A stretch of DNA of 64,000 nucleotides, taken from the NCBI RefSeq assembly GCF_000230835.1, contig NZ_CM001240.1:4490779-4554778 (forward strand), in the 5' to 3' direction. Under the pieces are notes generated by a model. It saw only the letters and a list, made by a program, of their open reading frames with translations, was not told the origin of the DNA and did no database searches. Position numbers and translations under genes: made by a program. This document shows, in pieces, positions 9,661-21,289 of this stretch. Each line of letters opens with the position of its first letter. Positions within the stretch are counted from its first letter, which is position 1. Source of the stretch: Clostridium sp. DL-VIII (GTDB taxonomy: Bacteria > Bacillota > Clostridia > Clostridiales > Clostridiaceae).

Positions 9661-10077
9661 TTAATTTTTTGTGGGACTATCTATTTCATCAATCATATAC
9701 TTTATTTTGTCGCATATAGAGAGAATCTGATCTACATCGAATAAATCTGGAATTCTGGAAAATGGATTATCAACTGAACAAATATTATAAAGCACATCAA
9801 AATTTCGTATTTCTTTATTTAGCTCTTCTGGAAAATCAGTTACTAATTCTACAGAATCCATAAGTGACCCATAGTTATGATTTCTAGCCTCTATGCCATA
9901 CCTGTTCCCAAAAGCTATCAGATATCTCTCAAGTGCAATAGATGCAACATTAAATACCACACTTGGATATTGACCTTCCTGTAGAAATTGCTCCGCTCTT
10001 TTATAATATGCATCTGCATCTTTGTAATTTTTTTGAAAAGTTTCAAAATCAATTTCATCAATCCTAATTTTAATCAT
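9661..10077 (-). CDS. HEPN-domain-like protein in the anf operon
   Basis: A 138-aa helical protein. I choose the ATG at 10077 (MIKIRIDEIDFE) because GAGGGGAAAG precedes it; an in-frame upstream ATG at 10101 lacks a site. The segment YYKRAEQFLQEGQYPSVVFNVASIALERYLIAF, followed by HN and a late DVLYNIC helix, looks like the HEPN fold of nucleotide-binding or sensor-type proteins; the R-x4-6-H RNase motif is not clearly present. It lies between anfK (300 bases upstream) and nifI1 (96 bases downstream) on the same strand. Its role is unknown. Confidence 0.6.
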   Translation of the reverse strand: MIKIRIDEIDFETFQKNYKDADAYYKRAEQFLQEGQYPSVVFNVASIALERYLIAFGNRYGIEARNHNYGSLMDSVELVTDFPEELNKEIRNFDVLYNICSVDNPFSRIPDLFDVDQILSICDKIKYMIDEIDSPTKN

Positions 10078-10194
10078 AATCTTTCCCCTCTTTATAGCCA
10101 TTCTGTTGGAATTTTTTAAGTCTAGTTATTCTAAGGTATACTTTTAAATTTATAAAATTAAGACAAAAAAATTAACTAAATCAACCTTTTATTT

Positions 10195-13760: not shown

Positions 13761-14618
<858 letters not shown>

Positions 14619-14731
14619 TTAAATATACTTTTTAATATAGATTTACTTTTGAAAGAATTTATCGGCTTTAGCTTAATAATTTAAAAACTAATTCGAAAAA
14701 AGTGCTTTTCTATAAAATATAACAGGCAACT

Positions 14732-14805
14732 TTAATAAACCTGGTGCCACTAGGATTAATAAATTCCTCAAAGCTTTATGTTATATTCGTGGTATAGCAT
14801 AAGGC
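14732..14805 (-). ncRNA. Leader RNA motif, copy A (proximal to anfH)
   Basis: On the minus strand this reads as a hairpin (arms 14793-14805 and 14773-14785, 11 of 13 pairs) with loop CCACGAA, an 18-base spacer, then the near-palindrome CCTAGTGGCACCAGG (14740-14754). The loop CCAC can pair with GTGG of that palindrome, making an H-type pseudoknot. It lies about 145 bases upstream of the anfH start. Copies B, C and D share loop and pairing element but differ in the stem. I do not recognise a known RNA family. Confidence 0.5.
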
Positions 14806-14841
14806 CTTCTATTTTTCATTTCAGAGATTCAAATTATTGCA

Positions 14842-15030
14842 CTAGAGATTTATTGGAACCACTTCACTTAAGCTATCATAAAAATAGGTAGCCTTAATAA
14901 ACCTGGCGCCACTAGAATAGTTAGTTTTTCTAAACTTCATCTTATATTCGTGGTATAAAATAAAGTCCTCTATTTCCTCTAATTCTTTAAAAGTAATTCT
15001 TTCTACACCATACAACATCTCTCCTTTCAC
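14842..15030 (-). CDS. Small ORF in the anfH leader, overlapping motif copy B
   Basis: Open frame of 62 codons from GTG 15030 (or 58 from ATG 15018) preceded by AAAGGAGAG, which is too close to the ATG but well placed for an internal TTG. It reads through the copy B hairpin (YHEYKMKF) and pairing element (SSGARFIK). In copies A and C the equivalent frame is broken by a frameshift and by stop codons, so the conserved signal looks like RNA rather than protein. It could still be a leader peptide. No known domain. Confidence 0.3.
   Translation of the reverse strand: MKGEMLYGVERITFKELEEIEDFILYHEYKMKFRKTNYSSGARFIKATYFYDSLSEVVPINL
14893..14966 (-). ncRNA. Leader RNA motif, copy B
   Basis: Hairpin arms 14954-14966 and 14934-14946 pair at 11 of 13 positions plus two G-U on the minus strand, loop CCACGAA, then TCTAGTGGCGCCAGG (14901-14915). 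The GTGG needed for the loop pseudoknot is conserved, while stem bases differ from copies A and C. Confidence 0.5.
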
Positions 15031-15049
15031 TATGTATTAATGGACAATT

Positions 15050-15113
15050 ATTTACCCACTATATATATCAAGACTCTTATTGAGCCAAGATTGCATATAA
15101 GTTTTTATCAATA
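15050..15113 (-). ncRNA. Leader RNA motif, diverged copy D
   Basis: The hairpin extends to 15131: arms 15121-15131 and 15103-15113 pair at 10 of 11 positions around the same loop CCACGAA, yet the stem sequence is wholly different from copies A-C. Further along the minus strand lies ATAGTGGG (about 15062-15055), matching the TAGTGG element. The kept loop on a changed but paired stem is the best covariation evidence for the motif. Confidence 0.42.
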
Positions 15114-15239
15114 TTCGTGGTATTCATAAAATACTTTAGCTGCAATAACAGTTTAAAGTCGAATTTATAAAAATTTCAATTTCCAAGTTAGTTAGATGCA
15201 TAAATTTGCTTTAAAATATCATAAAGAATATTTTAAATG

Positions 15240-15283
15240 TACAAAGGGGCATAATTGATTAATATCAATAATACCCCTTTGTA
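15240..15283. repeat. GGGG/CCCC inverted repeat in the anfH leader
   Basis: TACAAAGGGG and CCCCTTTGTA flank an inner ATTGAT/ATCAAT pair, an almost perfect 44-base palindrome. The same element occurs at 21203-21241 upstream of the amidotransferase gene, and a decayed copy is suggested near 15352-15397. It is transcribed downstream of the promoter at 15489-15516, so it may be an attenuator hairpin or a protein-binding site. Confidence 0.6.
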
Positions 15284-15488
15284 TATAATGAATTTTTATT
15301 ATATTTTCTCCTCTTTACTTCATCAATATTCTTTATAAAAAAATAAGAAAACAAAATAGTAAATTGATTAAATGAATAATACACCTTCGTATATAAACTA
15401 ATATTATTATACATTACATTACATCAACTCTGTTTTATTTTCTGTTTCATCCGCTTTTGATAGTTTTTATTTATTGTTATTAGATTTT

Positions 15489-15516
15489 ATTATACCTTTA
15501 ATAATTACATTGTCAA
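15489..15516 (-). promoter_or_regulatory. Sigma-A promoter for the anf leader
   Basis: On the minus strand TTGACA (15516-15511) and TATAAT (15494-15489) are separated by 16 bases, both perfect consensus hexamers. Transcription from here would give about 0.9 kb of leader before anfH. The 13 bases AGGTATAATAAAA are identical at the promoter upstream of the amidotransferase gene. Confidence 0.65.
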
Positions 15517-16691: not shown

Positions 16692-17855
16692 TTGATAAGC
16701 ATAACCAAACTTTTATGCAATTCCAAAAATTATGGTGACGACTTAAGATATGTTGAGGGTGCCTCATCAGAAAAATTTGGGGTTAGTCCTGGAAAAGGTC
16801 CTGTCATCAGTTGGAATTGTACAAAAACCTGTAATTTAAGATGCAAGCACTGTTATGCCAGTTCAGATAATAAAAAATATAATGATGAGCTTACATTAAG
16901 TGATTCCAAAAGATTTATTGATGATTTGAAGAATTTTAATGTGCCAGCATTATTGTTTTCTGGTGGAGAACCCTTAATGAAAGAAGACATATTAGATATA
17001 TTGAATTATGCAAACAAAAAAAATATAAGAAGTACTTTATCTACTAATGGAACACTTTTGGATAAAGATATTTGTAGGTTCTTAAAAAAAATTAATCTTG
17101 GATATGTTGGGGTAAGTCTTGATGGCATTGGTACAAGTCATGATGAATTTCGCGGAGTTAAAGGTGCATTTGATAGTTCCTTAATAGGGATTAGACATTG
17201 TATGGAAGTAAATCAAAAGGTTGGTCTTAGATTTACTATAACCAAAAATAATTATAAGGACTTAAAAGATATATTTTATTTAATCAAAGAAGAACATATT
17301 CCTAGAGTATGTTTCTATCATTTAGCATATTCAGGCAGAGGCAGTAAAATGACCACTGAAGATATTTCTAAGGAAGAAACAAGAGAAGCTTTAGATTTAA
17401 TAATAAACAAAGCAATTGAATTCGGGCCAAGCGTTGAAATTCTAACTGTTGACAATCATGCTGATGCTGTTTATACCTATCTGAAATCCTTAGAAAAGTT
17501 TAAAGATAAATCCGAGAATATATTAAAGCTTTTAAAAATTAATGGCGGGAATAGATCAGGAATGGCTTTTGCTAATGTGGATTTTTACGGTAATGTTCAT
17601 CCTGACCAATTTACTTGGCAGTATACTTTTGGAAATGTGAAAAAAGAAAATTTTAGCTCAATATGGAAAAATTCTAATCATCAAATCTTAAAAGGTCTTA
17701 GAAATAGAAAGACTTTACTAAAAGGTAAATGTTCTACCTGCAAATGGATTAATGTTTGTAATGGTAATTTTAGAACTAGAGCTGAAGCTGTATATAACGA
17801 CTTTTGGGCTGAAGATCCAGCTTGTTATCTTACAGATGAAGAAATCAAGTTATAA
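16692..17855 (+). CDS. ahbC: Radical SAM protein AhbC / NirJ1-like
   Basis: Radical SAM enzyme (387 aa) of the siroheme-to-heme branch. AhbC removes the acetate side chains of didecarboxysiroheme to give Fe-coproporphyrin III; the paralogue NirJ acts in heme d1 synthesis. The SAM-cluster motif CTKTCNLRCKHC (Cys47, 51, 54) follows a family-type N-terminal extension ending GPVISWN. The C-terminal SPASM/Twitch-like Cys set is in GKCSTCKWINVCNGNFRTRAEA and DPACYLTDEE. The start is TTG at 16692 with AAAGGAGG seven bases upstream. It lies 246 bases after anfO and is followed by three more genes of the pathway. Confidence 0.83.
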   Translation: MISITKLLCNSKNYGDDLRYVEGASSEKFGVSPGKGPVISWNCTKTCNLRCKHCYASSDNKKYNDELTLSDSKRFIDDLKNFNVPALLFSGGEPLMKEDILDILNYANKKNIRSTLSTNGTLLDKDICRFLKKINLGYVGVSLDGIGTSHDEFRGVKGAFDSSLIGIRHCMEVNQKVGLRFTITKNNYKDLKDIFYLIKEEHIPRVCFYHLAYSGRGSKMTTEDISKEETREALDLIINKAIEFGPSVEILTVDNHADAVYTYLKSLEKFKDKSENILKLLKINGGNRSGMAFANVDFYGNVHPDQFTWQYTFGNVKKENFSSIWKNSNHQILKGLRNRKTLLKGKCSTCKWINVCNGNFRTRAEAVYNDFWAEDPACYLTDEEIKL

Positions 17856-17991
17856 TTCATAATTATTGCTAATAAAATTTATATAACTGAATTATACAAA
17901 GATTCTAAAGCGTGCTATTTTAAGTAAACTTAACTATAGCCTATATTCAAATTAATTAAAATATTTTATATTATGAAGTTAGGTGATATAA

Positions 17992-18975
17992 ATGATAATA
18001 TCCTGGAATACTACAAATAGATGCAATTTAAAATGCAGACATTGTTATAGAGATTCAGGTAAGGAACTCAAAGAAGAGTTAAGCACAGAAGAAGCAAAGA
18101 TACTTATAAATCAAATTGCAAAAGCTAATTTTAAAATTATGATTTTTTCAGGTGGAGAGCCTCTGCTAAGAGAAGATATATTTGATCTGATAAGCTATGC
18201 CGTTAAAGCTGGCTTAAGGCCTGTACTTGGAACTAACGGAACCCTTATATCTAAAAAAATGGCGAAGCAATTAAAAGATGCTGGTATTTCTGCTATAGGA
18301 ATAAGCCTCGATAGTCTTGATTCTGGAAAACATAATCTTTTTAGAGGAAATAATGAAGCTTTCAAAAATACTATATGTGCCATAAAAAATTGCAAAGACT
18401 TAGGTATTAGATTTCAAATTCATACTACAGTTATGGATTGGAACAAGCAAGAAATCCTTAACCTTACTGATTTCTCCTCAGATATTGGAGCTGCTGCCCA
18501 TCATATCTTCTTTCTGATACCTGAAGGCAGAGGAAAAGATATGGCGAATGAGTTATTAACTTCAAAGGAGTATGAAAAATTATTAACTTCAATTATGAAT
18601 AAACAAAATGAAGTTAATATAGAAATAAAACCAACCTGCGCACCTCAATTTGTTAGAATTGCAAAAGATTTAAATATAAACAGCCGATTTAGCAAGGGCT
18701 GTATCGCAGGAATAAATTACTGTATTATTACTCCAAATGGTGATGTTCAGGCTTGTGCTTATTTAGCAGAAAAAGCTGGAAACGTCAGAGAGATTCCTTT
18801 TGATCAAATATGGAAAAGCAGTGCTTTGTTTAATAATTTAAGAACTCAGGAGTATAAAGGTATCTGCAATCAATGTAAATCTAAAAACAATTGTGGCGGC
18901 TGCAGAGCAAGAGCCGCATATTATAATTCTGGAGATTATATGGCATCTGATGTAACCTGCATTTTTAATGATTAA
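17992..18975 (+). CDS. Radical SAM protein AhbD / NirJ2-like
   Basis: A 327-aa radical SAM protein beginning almost at the cluster motif CNLKCRHC (Cys11, 15, 18), with the second-cluster Cys residues in the C-terminal KGICNQCKSKNNCGGCRARA segment. The size and layout fit the clostridial 'NirJ2' group and resemble AhbD, which oxidatively decarboxylates two propionates of Fe-coproporphyrin III to make heme b. Sequence alone does not separate AhbD from NirJ2. ATG with AGGTGAT upstream; its end overlaps the AhbA open frame. Confidence 0.78.
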   Translation: MIISWNTTNRCNLKCRHCYRDSGKELKEELSTEEAKILINQIAKANFKIMIFSGGEPLLREDIFDLISYAVKAGLRPVLGTNGTLISKKMAKQLKDAGISAIGISLDSLDSGKHNLFRGNNEAFKNTICAIKNCKDLGIRFQIHTTVMDWNKQEILNLTDFSSDIGAAAHHIFFLIPEGRGKDMANELLTSKEYEKLLTSIMNKQNEVNIEIKPTCAPQFVRIAKDLNINSRFSKGCIAGINYCIITPNGDVQACAYLAEKAGNVREIPFDQIWKSSALFNNLRTQEYKGICNQCKSKNNCGGCRARAAYYNSGDYMASDVTCIFND

Positions 18976-19003
18976 AATTTATTGCATTTGCGGAGGAATT
19001 ATT

Positions 19004-19480
19004 ATGGATGAAATAGATAAAAAACTACTTAATTTAATGCAAAACGAAATTCCAATTGATAAACGACCTTTTAAAATATTAGGTAAAAAATTATCCCTTA
19101 CAGAAAATGAAGTTTTAGAAAGGTTATTCAAGCTGAAAAATGATGGATTCATACGACGTGTAGGTGGCATTTTTGATTCAAAAAAGTTAGGTTATAAAAG
19201 TACTCTCTGCGCCGCTAAAATTCCAGAAAATAAAATTGAAGAAGCAGCTAAGTTTATAAATAGCTATGATGAAGTAACACATAATTACTTAAGAGAAGAT
19301 GAATACAATATGTGGTTTACAATCATAACTTCTTCTGAGAAAAACTTAGATATTATTCTTAAGGAAATACAAAACAATTTAAATTTTAAAGAAATAATAA
19401 TTCTTCCATCTATAAGGTTATTTAAGGTTAAAGTTGCTTTAAATTTTAAAGGAGATGATAAAAATTGTTTAAAACTTTAG
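19004..19480 (+). CDS. ahbA: Siroheme decarboxylase subunit AhbA-like
   Basis: AsnC/Lrp-fold protein (158 aa) matching siroheme decarboxylase, which removes two carboxylates from the acetate side chains of siroheme as an AhbA-AhbB complex. The frame extends upstream, but I start at ATG 19004 because GCGGAGGAA precedes it. Family features: DEIDKKLLNLMQNEIPIDKRP at the N-terminal winged helix, FIRRVGGIFDSKKLGYKSTL, and THNYLREDEYNMWFT in the catalytic domain. It overlaps the start of the AhbB-like gene by 16 bases. Confidence 0.83.
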   Translation: MDEIDKKLLNLMQNEIPIDKRPFKILGKKLSLTENEVLERLFKLKNDGFIRRVGGIFDSKKLGYKSTLCAAKIPENKIEEAAKFINSYDEVTHNYLREDEYNMWFTIITSSEKNLDIILKEIQNNLNFKEIIILPSIRLFKVKVALNFKGDDKNCLKL

Positions 19481-19932
19481 ATAAAGAAATAATACTTAAA
19501 TTACAAGAAAATATTCCTTTATCATCAACCCCATATAAAGACATGGCCGATGAACTTAACTTAAATGAAGATGAATTTATAAATAGGCTTCAATCTTATA
19601 TTAAATATGGAATATTAAAAAGAATTGGCGCCATTATTTATCATAGAAAGGCAGGTTTCAAAGCTAATGCATTGGTAGTTTGGAAAATTAATACTAAAGA
19701 CTTAGATAGAATTGGAGAATACTTGATATCTATTCCTGAAATCAGCCACTGCTATGAGCGAAAAGCTTGTGATTCATGGAATTATAATCTCTATACAATG
19801 ATACATGAAAAAGATAGAGATAGTTGTAATAATGTTATTGTTAAGATAGCAAATGCTATAAGTTGTACAAACTACAAAATTCTATATAGCACAAAAGAAC
19901 TAAAAAAAACAAGTATGAAATACTTTAGTTAA
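19465..19932 (+). CDS. ahbB: Siroheme decarboxylase subunit AhbB-like
   Basis: Second AsnC-type subunit (155 aa). Signature segments are LKRIGAIIYHRKAGFKANALV, the ISHCYERKACDSWNYNLYTM motif with its conserved His-Cys-Tyr-x-Arg, and the HEKD turn. The start is TTG at 19465 within the end of the upstream gene, with AAAGGAGATGA before it, so translation is probably coupled. With the two radical SAM proteins it gives a complete predicted set from siroheme to heme b; the siroheme-forming genes are not in the window. Confidence 0.83.
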   Translation: MFKTLDKEIILKLQENIPLSSTPYKDMADELNLNEDEFINRLQSYIKYGILKRIGAIIYHRKAGFKANALVVWKINTKDLDRIGEYLISIPEISHCYERKACDSWNYNLYTMIHEKDRDSCNNVIVKIANAISCTNYKILYSTKELKKTSMKYFS

Positions 19933-20141: not shown

Positions 20142-20858
20142 TTATTCTTTCCCCTTTTCTAAATACATTTCTTCTAAACTATCTAGAAGCATGTTCATAA
20201 GGCTATTATCAAGATTTAAATAGTCTAGTTTTGATTTAATTACTTCTTCTGTTTGAATATACTCTCCCTCAGTCATTTCCTCCCTGCAATTTTCAATTAA
20301 CGAAGTTATATTACTTTCAAGACTTTCCATATGAAATTGAAAGCCTATAACTCTATTTTTATAAACAAATGCTTGATTACTGCAAGCCTCGCTGGCTGCT
20401 ATCAGTGAAACTCCTTTGCCAAGTTCACTAAAAGTGTCTCCATGCCACTGGAAAACAGGAAATTCCTTCAAAAATCCTCTAAATGGTGAAGACTTCAATG
20501 CTTCTTCAGTAAAATTGACAGGAAAAAAACCTATTTCTTTTTCCTTATTCTTAGTGACTTTTCCTCCTAGAACCTCAGTAATAAGTTGTGCTCCGAGACA
20601 TATTCCAAGTACAATTTTATTATTATTAATGGCTTCCTTAATAAATTTTTTCTCATATTTTAGCCATTCATATTTCCCCTCTTCATAAATATTCATTGGC
20701 CCTCCCATAATAACTAAGAAATCAAACTGATCAATTTCAGGAACTGCTTCATAATTATACAAATGAGTACCAGTTAATTTGTGTCCTTTTTTATAAGCCC
20801 ATTTAACAATATTACCTGGGTTTTCAAATGGAACATGTTGCAAATAGTGAATTCTCAT
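20142..20858 (-). CDS. Class I glutamine amidotransferase
   Basis: A 238-aa stand-alone type 1 amidotransferase domain resembling GMP-synthase-like amidotransferases and gamma-glutamyl hydrolase relatives. The nucleophile Cys lies in LGICLGAQL, the His in FQFHMES, and the oxyanion strand is LVIMGGPMNIYEE. The acceptor substrate is unknown; some relatives hydrolyse or build gamma-glutamyl compounds. ATG at 20858 with GAGGTAATAG upstream. Its leader (about 395 bases from the promoter at 21262-21289) carries motif copy C and the same inverted repeat as the anf leader, so it may share the signal controlling Fe-nitrogenase. Confidence 0.85.
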   Translation of the reverse strand: MRIHYLQHVPFENPGNIVKWAYKKGHKLTGTHLYNYEAVPEIDQFDFLVIMGGPMNIYEEGKYEWLKYEKKFIKEAINNNKIVLGICLGAQLITEVLGGKVTKNKEKEIGFFPVNFTEEALKSSPFRGFLKEFPVFQWHGDTFSELGKGVSLIAASEACSNQAFVYKNRVIGFQFHMESLESNITSLIENCREEMTEGEYIQTEEVIKSKLDYLNLDNSLMNMLLDSLEEMYLEKGKE

Positions 20859-21002
20859 ATCTATTACCTCATTTCAAATTATATATTTCTATCTTTCGGC
20901 ATTGTTTGCTTCTATTTTACAAAATAGACCTGTGATTTATTAATATAAAAATTTACTTGAAAAAAATTCTACATTTTGATAAACTACAGATAATAGGTAA
21001 TT

Positions 21003-21075
21003 TTAATAACCCTGGTGCCACTAGGATTAGCAAATTACCTCGGCTTCATGTTATATTCGTGGTATAACATGAAGC
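21003..21075 (-). ncRNA. Leader RNA motif, copy C (amidotransferase leader)
   Basis: A perfect 13-base-pair hairpin (arms 21063-21075 and 21043-21055) with loop CCACGAA on the minus strand, then CCTAGTGGCACCAGG (21011-21025). The segment just upstream (ATGGTGTAGAA...ATTACT) is also shared with the copy B leader. It lies 145 bases before the amidotransferase start codon. Confidence 0.55.
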
Positions 21076-21202
21076 TTTTTATTTTCTTTAACAGTAATTC
21101 TTCTACACCATATTACATCTCCCCTTTCATTCACTAAATAATAATCCTAATGTATGATCTATCAGGATTATTATGACAAATTTTAATAATTTGTACTAGA
21201 AA

Positions 21203-21241
21203 ACAAAAGGGATAATTGATAAAAATCAATTACCCCTTTGT
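21203..21241. repeat. GGGG/CCCC inverted repeat, amidotransferase leader
   Basis: ACAAAAGGGATAATTGAT and ATCAATTACCCCTTTGT form a near-perfect stem, matching the element at 15240-15283. It would be the first structure of the transcript from the adjacent promoter. T-rich sequence follows on the minus strand (CCCTTTTGTTTTC), so an attenuator is possible. Another hairpin (AATAATCCT/AGGATTATT, 21140-21172) follows. Confidence 0.55.
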
Positions 21242-21261: not shown

Positions 21262-21289
21262 ATTATACCTCTGCCAATTTCGCTGTCAA
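21262..21289 (-). promoter_or_regulatory. Sigma-A promoter for the amidotransferase leader
   Basis: TTGACA (21289-21284), 16-base spacer and TATAAT (21267-21262) on the minus strand, the same hexamers and spacer length as the anf-leader promoter. The rest of 21301-21495 shows no gene. Confidence 0.65.

Follow-up and report, generated by a model that had tools for sequence, protein, structure and literature searches.

The window analyzed here is a 64,000-nucleotide stretch of the genome of Clostridium sp. DL-VIII (contig NZ_CM001240.1, positions 4,490,779 to 4,554,778) that encodes an Fe-only nitrogenase, and the element under study is a hairpin module that recurs in the leader of this operon and upstream of one further gene. 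The operon lies on the minus strand and consists of anfH (13761..14588, −, a nifH-family equivalog), anfD (ANFD), anfG, and anfK, followed by two PII-like genes, with anfO on the other side. As proposed in the initial annotation of this DNA, it is preceded by a TTGACA-16-TATAAT promoter (15489..15516, −; 12/12 in a promoter scan) upstream of the anfH ATG at 14588. The three hairpins with the minus-strand loop CCACGAA that had been described in the leader were found in place. Module A (14723..14807, −; 64.4 bits with the covariance model R1) and module B (14885..14967, −; R1 58 bits) each consist of a hairpin and a box, and the near-palindrome CTAGTGGCRCCAGG is present at both, as had been noted. 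Module B is promoterless and looks like a target-type copy. Hairpin D (15103..15131, −; R1 23.7 bits, E 0.08), likewise of target type, comprises the loop CCACGAA only, without a box and without an opposite promoter, and 2 of its 12 stem positions are unpaired. Of the four copies that had been mentioned, A, B, and D do lie in the anf leader; the fourth, copy C, sits elsewhere, at 21054, about 6 kb from anfH and before a glutamine-amidotransferase-like gene. The word TACCACGAATA occurs exactly four times in the 6.48-Mb genome, always inside 6.3 kb of the window; its reversed control word occurs eight times genome-wide, so that the clustering is unusual and not the genome-wide frequency.

The RNA family formed by these copies is real and apparently undescribed. 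Its earlier description as unrecognized holds, as Rfam gave no window match at gathering score (seven matches in the leader at E ≤ 10, best E 0.31) and no known-class match at five fetched homologous loci either. A pattern search of 68 genomes of the genus recovered the same anfH leader in one other species (G023), with three hairpins that carry the CCACGAA loop on different, still paired stems; a further match, in G014, was rejected as a module for its unlike appearance. Only the window genome (G000) and G023 have anfD above the cut-off among these 68. An AnfD search then provided 80 loci, on which R1 was run. Besides the window and L006, nine of the 80 contain R1 modules, namely those of a Bacillota metagenome-assembled genome (L010), Clostridium intestinale (L012), Pelosinus (L013, L016, L020), Sporomusa (L014), Ruminiclostridium hungatei (L022), Propionispora (L030), and Pectinatus (L089). 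No R1 match came from the five Paenibacillus species loci or from the other Paenibacillus loci in L010-L089. Homologues are thus present elsewhere, among them the one before anfH in the second species, and the idea of a kept loop on a covarying stem was borne out: across 22 module copies, 14 of 17 pairs change on both sides, 11 of 12 in the main hairpin, and the covariation score is 0.36 versus 0.15 in shuffles, in an alignment that had been fitted to the model. A conserved protein frame as the better explanation is rejected. Copy B lies in a 62-amino-acid frame with a Shine-Dalgarno site, yet by inspection copies A, C, and D have no intact frame, and stem length varies by one nucleotide from copy to copy.

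The strand that carries the RNA was assessed on 68 modules (45 anf, copy C, and 22 nif), drawn from 121 R1 matches. Duplicate genomes (L095, L100, L101, L105, L106, L109, L110, L130), hairpin-only matches, opposite-strand partial matches, and D-type matches were excluded, and only the inner hairpin was kept from the long hits of L020 and L107. Most modules contain CATTATAA...TTTTTCAA, or a close variant, downstream of the box, which is the reverse complement of TTGAAA-17-TATAAT. A promoter of at least 10/12 is present on the opposite strand in 50 of the 68 modules and on the sense strand in one (60 shuffles: mean 2.5, largest 6). At one fixed place, a promoter of at least 9/12 is found in 50 of 68, including all 22 nif modules, and 37 are exact TTGAAA-17-TATAAT elements. 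The hairpin is preceded by an A-run (at least 5 A in 9 bases, U on the opposite strand) in 62 modules, while a sense-side run of at least 5 T accompanies one. The inner 12 stem pairs of the 50 promoter-bearing copies, read in the sense direction, comprise 14 A·C, no G·U, and 6 other mismatches, so that their wobbles are G-U on the opposite strand alone; the 18 promoterless copies show 20 G·U, 10 A·C, and 13 others, and this split by promoter was chosen after the unsplit count over all 68 modules had come out even (34 G·U versus 34 A·C on sense). Of the 50 copies with a promoter, 44 form the more stable fold on the opposite strand (−31.9 versus −25.4 kcal/mol).

Taken together, the opposite-strand promoter, the side of the U-run, and the wobbles point to a unit that is a predicted gene for a small RNA of about 90 nucleotides, antisense to the leader of the operon. 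Copies with a promoter look like genes for this opposite-strand RNA, whereas those without one resemble structured sites within the operon's own leader; in 17 of these 18 cases, a further copy follows downstream in that leader, and only copy A of the window departs from this. Operon promoters are predicted upstream of the modules on the sense strand (by scans in the window and by eye in the other leaders). The predicted small RNA probably ends at a terminator, given the U-run side in 62 of 68 modules and the terminator-like hairpins on the plus strand at A and C. In the window, copy C looks promoter-bearing, and A, B, and D look like target-type copies. The sense leader also seems to carry extra, promoterless copies and would thus be structured itself, the simplest reading being that it pairs with the small RNA.

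The initial annotation had thus recognized the right element but assigned it to the wrong strand. It had suggested a structured RNA on the anfH strand, of the kind a riboswitch or aptamer would form; promoter, terminator side, and wobbles of the promoter-bearing copies all indicate the opposite strand, as does its greater stability. Its guess of Mo or Fe sensing found no support in this analysis. A cis-acting sense leader RNA of the anfH transcript, whether riboswitch or protein-binding RNA, would fit the sense promoter and the long leader, the sense terminator-like hairpins in the 330-base stretches before the first module (31 of 40, versus 13 of 40 on the other strand; the terminator count includes L131, the nif locus of G480, which is absent from the loop table), and the lean of the promoterless copies toward sense G·U. 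We nevertheless regard this explanation as quite unlikely, because the features of the promoter-bearing copies all lie on the opposite strand, the Pelosinus loop is reverse-complemented, a change hardly compatible with recognition of the sense RNA by a ligand or protein, and the nif and anf loops of one genome differ.

Several other folds and classes were rejected. An H-type pseudoknot between the CCAC of the loop and the GTGG of the box had been proposed, but this complementarity is broken in homologues: Pelosinus keeps GUGG in the box though its loop is UUCGUGG, the loops of Pectinatus L089 and of G241 read CGGCAA and CUACCA, and one G023 copy is without GUGG (UAUGGC). Loop-box kissing within one RNA was discarded by eye for want of consistent complementarity across the nif leaders. 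T-boxes have an invariant UGGN in the box; the box here varies (GUAGC, GUGAC, CUGGU) and has no Rfam match. Two-hairpin ANTAR targets have hexaloops with A1 and G4, and by inspection the loops here are mostly of 7 nucleotides, such as CCACGAA and UUCGUGG.

Copy C is the candidate small-RNA gene of the window. Its promoter (20957..20985, +) reads TTGAAA-17-TAAACT with a TG ahead of the −10 element and stands at the same fixed position as in other modules (9/12). The gene from the −10 element through the U-run (20980..21086, +) scores 83 bits (E 2.5e-12) with R2, a covariance model built from 35 opposite-strand RNAs out of the 68 modules, copy C itself being among the 35. The predicted RNA extends from about 20992 to 21082 (+) and would end in a terminator-like hairpin (21042..21076, +; terminator scan) with the loop UUCGUGG, followed by TTTTATTTTC. 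An opposing transcript toward the class-I glutamine amidotransferase-like gene behind copy C (20142..20858, −; annotation) is predicted from a TTGACA-16-TATAAT promoter (21262..21289, −; 12/12 in the promoter scan), with a terminator-like hairpin that starts AAAGGGGTAATTGAT (21206..21239, −; terminator scan) and a strong Shine-Dalgarno-like element, GAAAGGGGAGATG (21116..21128, −). No plasmid relatives of copy C were found. Modules A and B also match R2 on the plus strand, A with 76.7 bits (14711-14816) and B with 56.9 bits (14874-14977); A retains a terminator-like hairpin (14773-14805) and TATAAA at the −10 place, and at B the opposite-strand promoter at the fixed place reaches 8/12 at best.

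Among the 35 small RNAs, read on the opposite strand, 99% of 420 cells are paired and 9 of 12 pairs change on both sides. RNAalifold on alignment A4 retained the terminator hairpin alone; a second hairpin is proposed from the P2 pairs (60% and 86% of cells paired) and from inspection. The family also contains a conserved segment, AAUAAACC.

We consider it probable that these small RNAs of about 90 nucleotides, made from their own opposite-strand promoter, pair with the leaders of nitrogenase operons and lower mRNA output. The promoter, terminator, structured strand, covariation, anf/nif linkage, and matched loops are established computationally, at the level of sequence. In the mechanism that we postulate, the small RNA would be transcribed from a TTGAAA-17-TATAAT-like promoter opposite the nitrogenase leader and would end in a long hairpin and a U-run. 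First contact would be a loop-loop kissing of UUCGUGG with CCACGAA, from which pairing would spread via AAUAAACC/GGUUUAUU and the box segments, and attenuation, RNase III cleavage, or both would then reduce the nitrogenase mRNA. Tandem promoterless copies would serve as additional docking sites. In the window, copies A, B, and D in the anf leader would be trans targets of the C RNA, which would also act in cis on the gene that follows C. We take the outcome to be repression, since this is the usual effect of antisense RNAs that cover leaders and since sense leaders often start with one or two terminator-like hairpins at which attenuation could act. Against 60-base pieces of the anf leader, C gives its best predicted duplexes at A (−80.5 kcal/mol) and B (−66.2 kcal/mol), compared with a best of −35.7 and a mean of −27.7 kcal/mol for 60 shuffled leaders. 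Hairpin D is a putative target by virtue of its hairpin and loop. The facing promoters of the two strands and the terminator-like form of the hairpin on the opposite strand would also agree with a unit that merely stops or collides with transcription, as a bidirectional terminator or by interference, its RNA being inert. Such a unit leaves the conserved, co-varying loops, the conserved AAUAAACC, and the box segments unexplained, and we hold it to be very unlikely.

The loops behave as a pairing of small RNA and leader would predict. Between small-RNA gene and promoterless copies, loops are 99% identical and outer stems 57% (19 comparisons at 17 loci, two of which set window C against A and B, copies of a different leader). 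Lineage-specific loop changes are common to both partners, as in CCACAAA (L097), CTACGAA (L014, L102), and TTCGTGG (Pelosinus), and a single pair differs (L010, CCACGAA versus ACACGAA). At the three Pelosinus loci, the loop UUCGUGG is the exact reverse complement in all copies found, with the orientation of the box kept, which fits sense/antisense kissing. In all nine genomes in which both could be read (10 tried), the nif and anf loops differ, seven of these nine comparisons coming from the single genus g271. The YUNR word speeds loop-loop contact in antisense systems, according to the available excerpt of PMC8464778. It is present, on one strand or the other, in 12 of the 13 different 7-nucleotide loops (shuffles 0.41 per loop), in a set of 17 hand-picked loop words that did not include the variants ACACGAA and CCGCGAA. 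If either partner can supply a required U-turn, the flipped loop would be accounted for.

The family was then traced with R1 and later R2 through 300 genomes from the class of G241, which we take to be Negativicutes. R1 identified 34 carriers and R2 53, with 90 hits. NifD at E ≤ 1e-60 is present in 58 of the 300 genomes, in 49 of them above the curated cut-off. The small RNA occurs in 51 of these 58 and in 2 of the 242 genomes without nifD (Fisher p 3e-47), the two being G517, a weak match, and G595, an incomplete genome. Set against 79 of the 141 places of the nifD search (main nifD and anfD-type, with second matches, nifE-type by place, left out), 84 of all 90 R2 hits have a nifD-family gene within 7 kb, and 83 are upstream of this gene and on the strand opposite to it. 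The remaining seven comprise two that adjoin anfH (G516, contig C37), one in opposite orientation at anf, and four elsewhere. Mobile hairpin repeats, akin to miniature inverted-repeat transposable elements or repetitive extragenic palindromes and sitting in leaders by chance, would account for several copies per locus and for inverted loops, but not for the proximity to nifD-family genes in one orientation, the conserved promoter spacing, or the report of only three modules in the window genome; we consider them extremely improbable.

The restriction to the Fe-only nitrogenase that was first assumed does not hold, as the module also precedes nifH. Nine loci (L111-L115, L117, L120-L122) and 16 of 18 fetched regions encode a NifH that is 62.6-67.4% identical to AnfH and is taken to be Mo-type because nifD adjoins; by eye, a PII-type gene follows in the nine named loci. 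In the nifH leaders of G000 (L123) and G023 (L124), which are two of these 16 regions, inspection revealed terminator-like hairpins and no module. T-tailed hairpins with GGCAATGAAGTCTAAG and like flanks stand ahead of nifH at L123:5100-5648 and in L124, and a simple scan of L123 scored no hairpin as a terminator. Outside the class, R1 found carriers in 2 of 398 genomes of the phylum, and R2 in 2 of 341 of the window's class and 4 of 67 of its genus, two of these four (L173, L174) being weak; the filters in these searches were stricter and few candidates were scored in each genome, so that copies can be missed. In Clostridium and Ruminiclostridium, the copies linked to anf may have traveled together with it.

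Two clear relatives of the small RNA lie away from nif, at L179:4190-4292 and L182:632-731 (65 and 63 bits). Each has a similar promoter and AAATAAACCC, is located opposite a gene for a transporter, which is MFS-type in L179 and formate-transporter-like in L182, and is near a formate-tetrahydrofolate-ligase-like gene, the names being given by eye from translations. Such relatives by formate-type genes in Sporomusa-type genomes, together with the 6 kb between copy C and anfH and the conservation of AAUAAACC, could speak for a trans-acting small RNA of nitrogen-fixing cells that has its main targets elsewhere and whose leader position merely couples its expression to nif/anf. The loop matching to promoterless copies of the same leader and the per-leader specificity, however, require the local leader, and the relatives away from nif again lie opposite and upstream of another gene. 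We therefore judge this explanation to be unlikely.

Several points, along with the late choice of the wobble split and the single-genus origin of most nif/anf loop comparisons, weigh against a leader-pairing small RNA. The evidence for the RNA and for its effect is at the level of sequence, from which we infer the regulation. In the window, the promoter of copy C reaches only 9/12, and the gene-proximal module A is without a clear −35 element (7/12 at best at the fixed place), so that the in-cis small RNA may have been lost here. The predicted duplex of D with the small RNA C amounts to only −22.6 kcal/mol and does not rise above shuffled leaders. YUNR is present in just one of four 6-nucleotide loops, and loop sharing among tandem copies could arise through gene conversion. 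Many modules are closely related, and shuffle controls and p-values hence overstate independence. Seven of the 58 nifD genomes have no small RNA, and the two clear relatives before formate-type genes mean that the family is not strictly nitrogenase-linked.

A broader proposition, to which we lend somewhat less than even credence, is that leader-antisense small RNAs govern Mo and Fe-only nitrogenase operons across a Bacillota class. Loop and leader copies would evolve as lock and key with separate nif and anf keys per cell, and the window bacterium would have moved its key gene away and control anf in trans.

The plasmid pIP501, with its antisense-mediated attenuation, and the glnA antisense RNA of Clostridium are the nearest precedents. 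In pIP501, RNAIII acts on the repR leader. The likeness lies in a leader faced by a small RNA from the other strand, in stem-loops of both RNAs, and in a YUNR loop on one partner, as far as the available portion of PMC8464778 goes; in contrast, the family described here is chromosomal, located at nitrogenase operons, and associated with tandem promoterless target copies, and its attenuation step is only proposed. The glnA antisense RNA (Fierro-Monti 1992, cited in PMC4676874) also belongs to a nitrogen-metabolism gene, albeit a different one, and the comparison is by the description in the excerpt of that source. NfiS, NfiR, and sRNA154 are likewise small RNAs acting on nif mRNAs, but in Pseudomonas or Methanosarcina, and the accessible text of the review (PMC9170634) describes no opposite-leader arrangement for them; it covers five nitrogen-fixation non-coding RNAs, with no Bacillota leader-antisense RNA among those described there. 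The Bacillus type I antitoxin RNAs SR4 and SR5 share the loop-loop first contact with YUNR (excerpt of PMC8464778), whereas their target is a small toxin mRNA and not the leader of a metabolic operon. In the Paenibacillus riograndensis transcriptome, three antisense RNAs begin in the 5′ untranslated regions of other genes, and the nif and anf operons are not expressed (PMC5670726, in excerpt). Full-text searches of the open-access literature, judged mostly from titles and abstract openings and with subscription papers and preprints outside their scope, turned up no evident report of this element.

The control mechanisms of the Fe-only nitrogenase in Paenibacillus sonchi 'remain elusive' in the excerpt of a 2024 review (PMC10789242). 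For the control of this enzyme by nitrogen and molybdenum in Bacillota, the conserved predicted antisense RNA offers a concrete control element. The natural series of small-RNA and target loop pairs that change together, including complete strand flips, provides a test bed for kissing-loop rules.

Further features accompany the modules and their leaders. Two other stretches of the window anf leader, 15351..15390 and 15241..15282 (−), were noted from the sequence, and neither scored as a terminator; the simple sense-strand scan found no terminator in this leader and one in the C leader. Many modules are preceded on the sense strand by a very strong Shine-Dalgarno-like AAGGAGGTGRT with no evident start codon, such as GAAAGGAGAGATG ahead of copy B (15016..15028, −) and the element at 21116-21128, which could serve 30S binding or RNA stabilization. 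The Stab-SD element of cry3A, a GAAAGGAGRGATG-like element without a start codon, is a look-alike only. The nif leaders L111-L122 and L126-L140 have one or two terminator-like hairpins just past the operon promoter, most of them flanked by GCAAWGR (AGCAATGGAGCTTAC...), which may form a control point of their own for antitermination. In several genomes, the near-palindrome TTAATATTGCGAATAT directly precedes the promoter of the nif operon (e.g. L117 at about −420); by eye, it looks like a regulator site.

Of the weaker R2 matches, L173 (G044; 41.2 bits) and L174 (G043; 36.5 bits), with the loops CTATCAA/CTACCAA, lie downstream of helicase-like genes by eye and are either chance matches or a distant relative. 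A small-RNA-like unit of G241 (L181:2969-3052, −; R2 39.9 bits), with TTGAAA-17-TATACT and the loop TTGCAG, is located upstream of a region that by eye is ACT-domain/homoserine-dehydrogenase-like. Within the window, a 146-amino-acid gene between anfK and the PII-like genes (9661-10101, −) has no NCBIfam match. Adjoining anfO, the region 16692-19932 (+) contains a pair of radical SAM/SPASM genes and a pair of siroheme-decarboxylase-type (NirDL-like) genes, so that haem-pathway-like genes lie next to the Fe-only nitrogenase.
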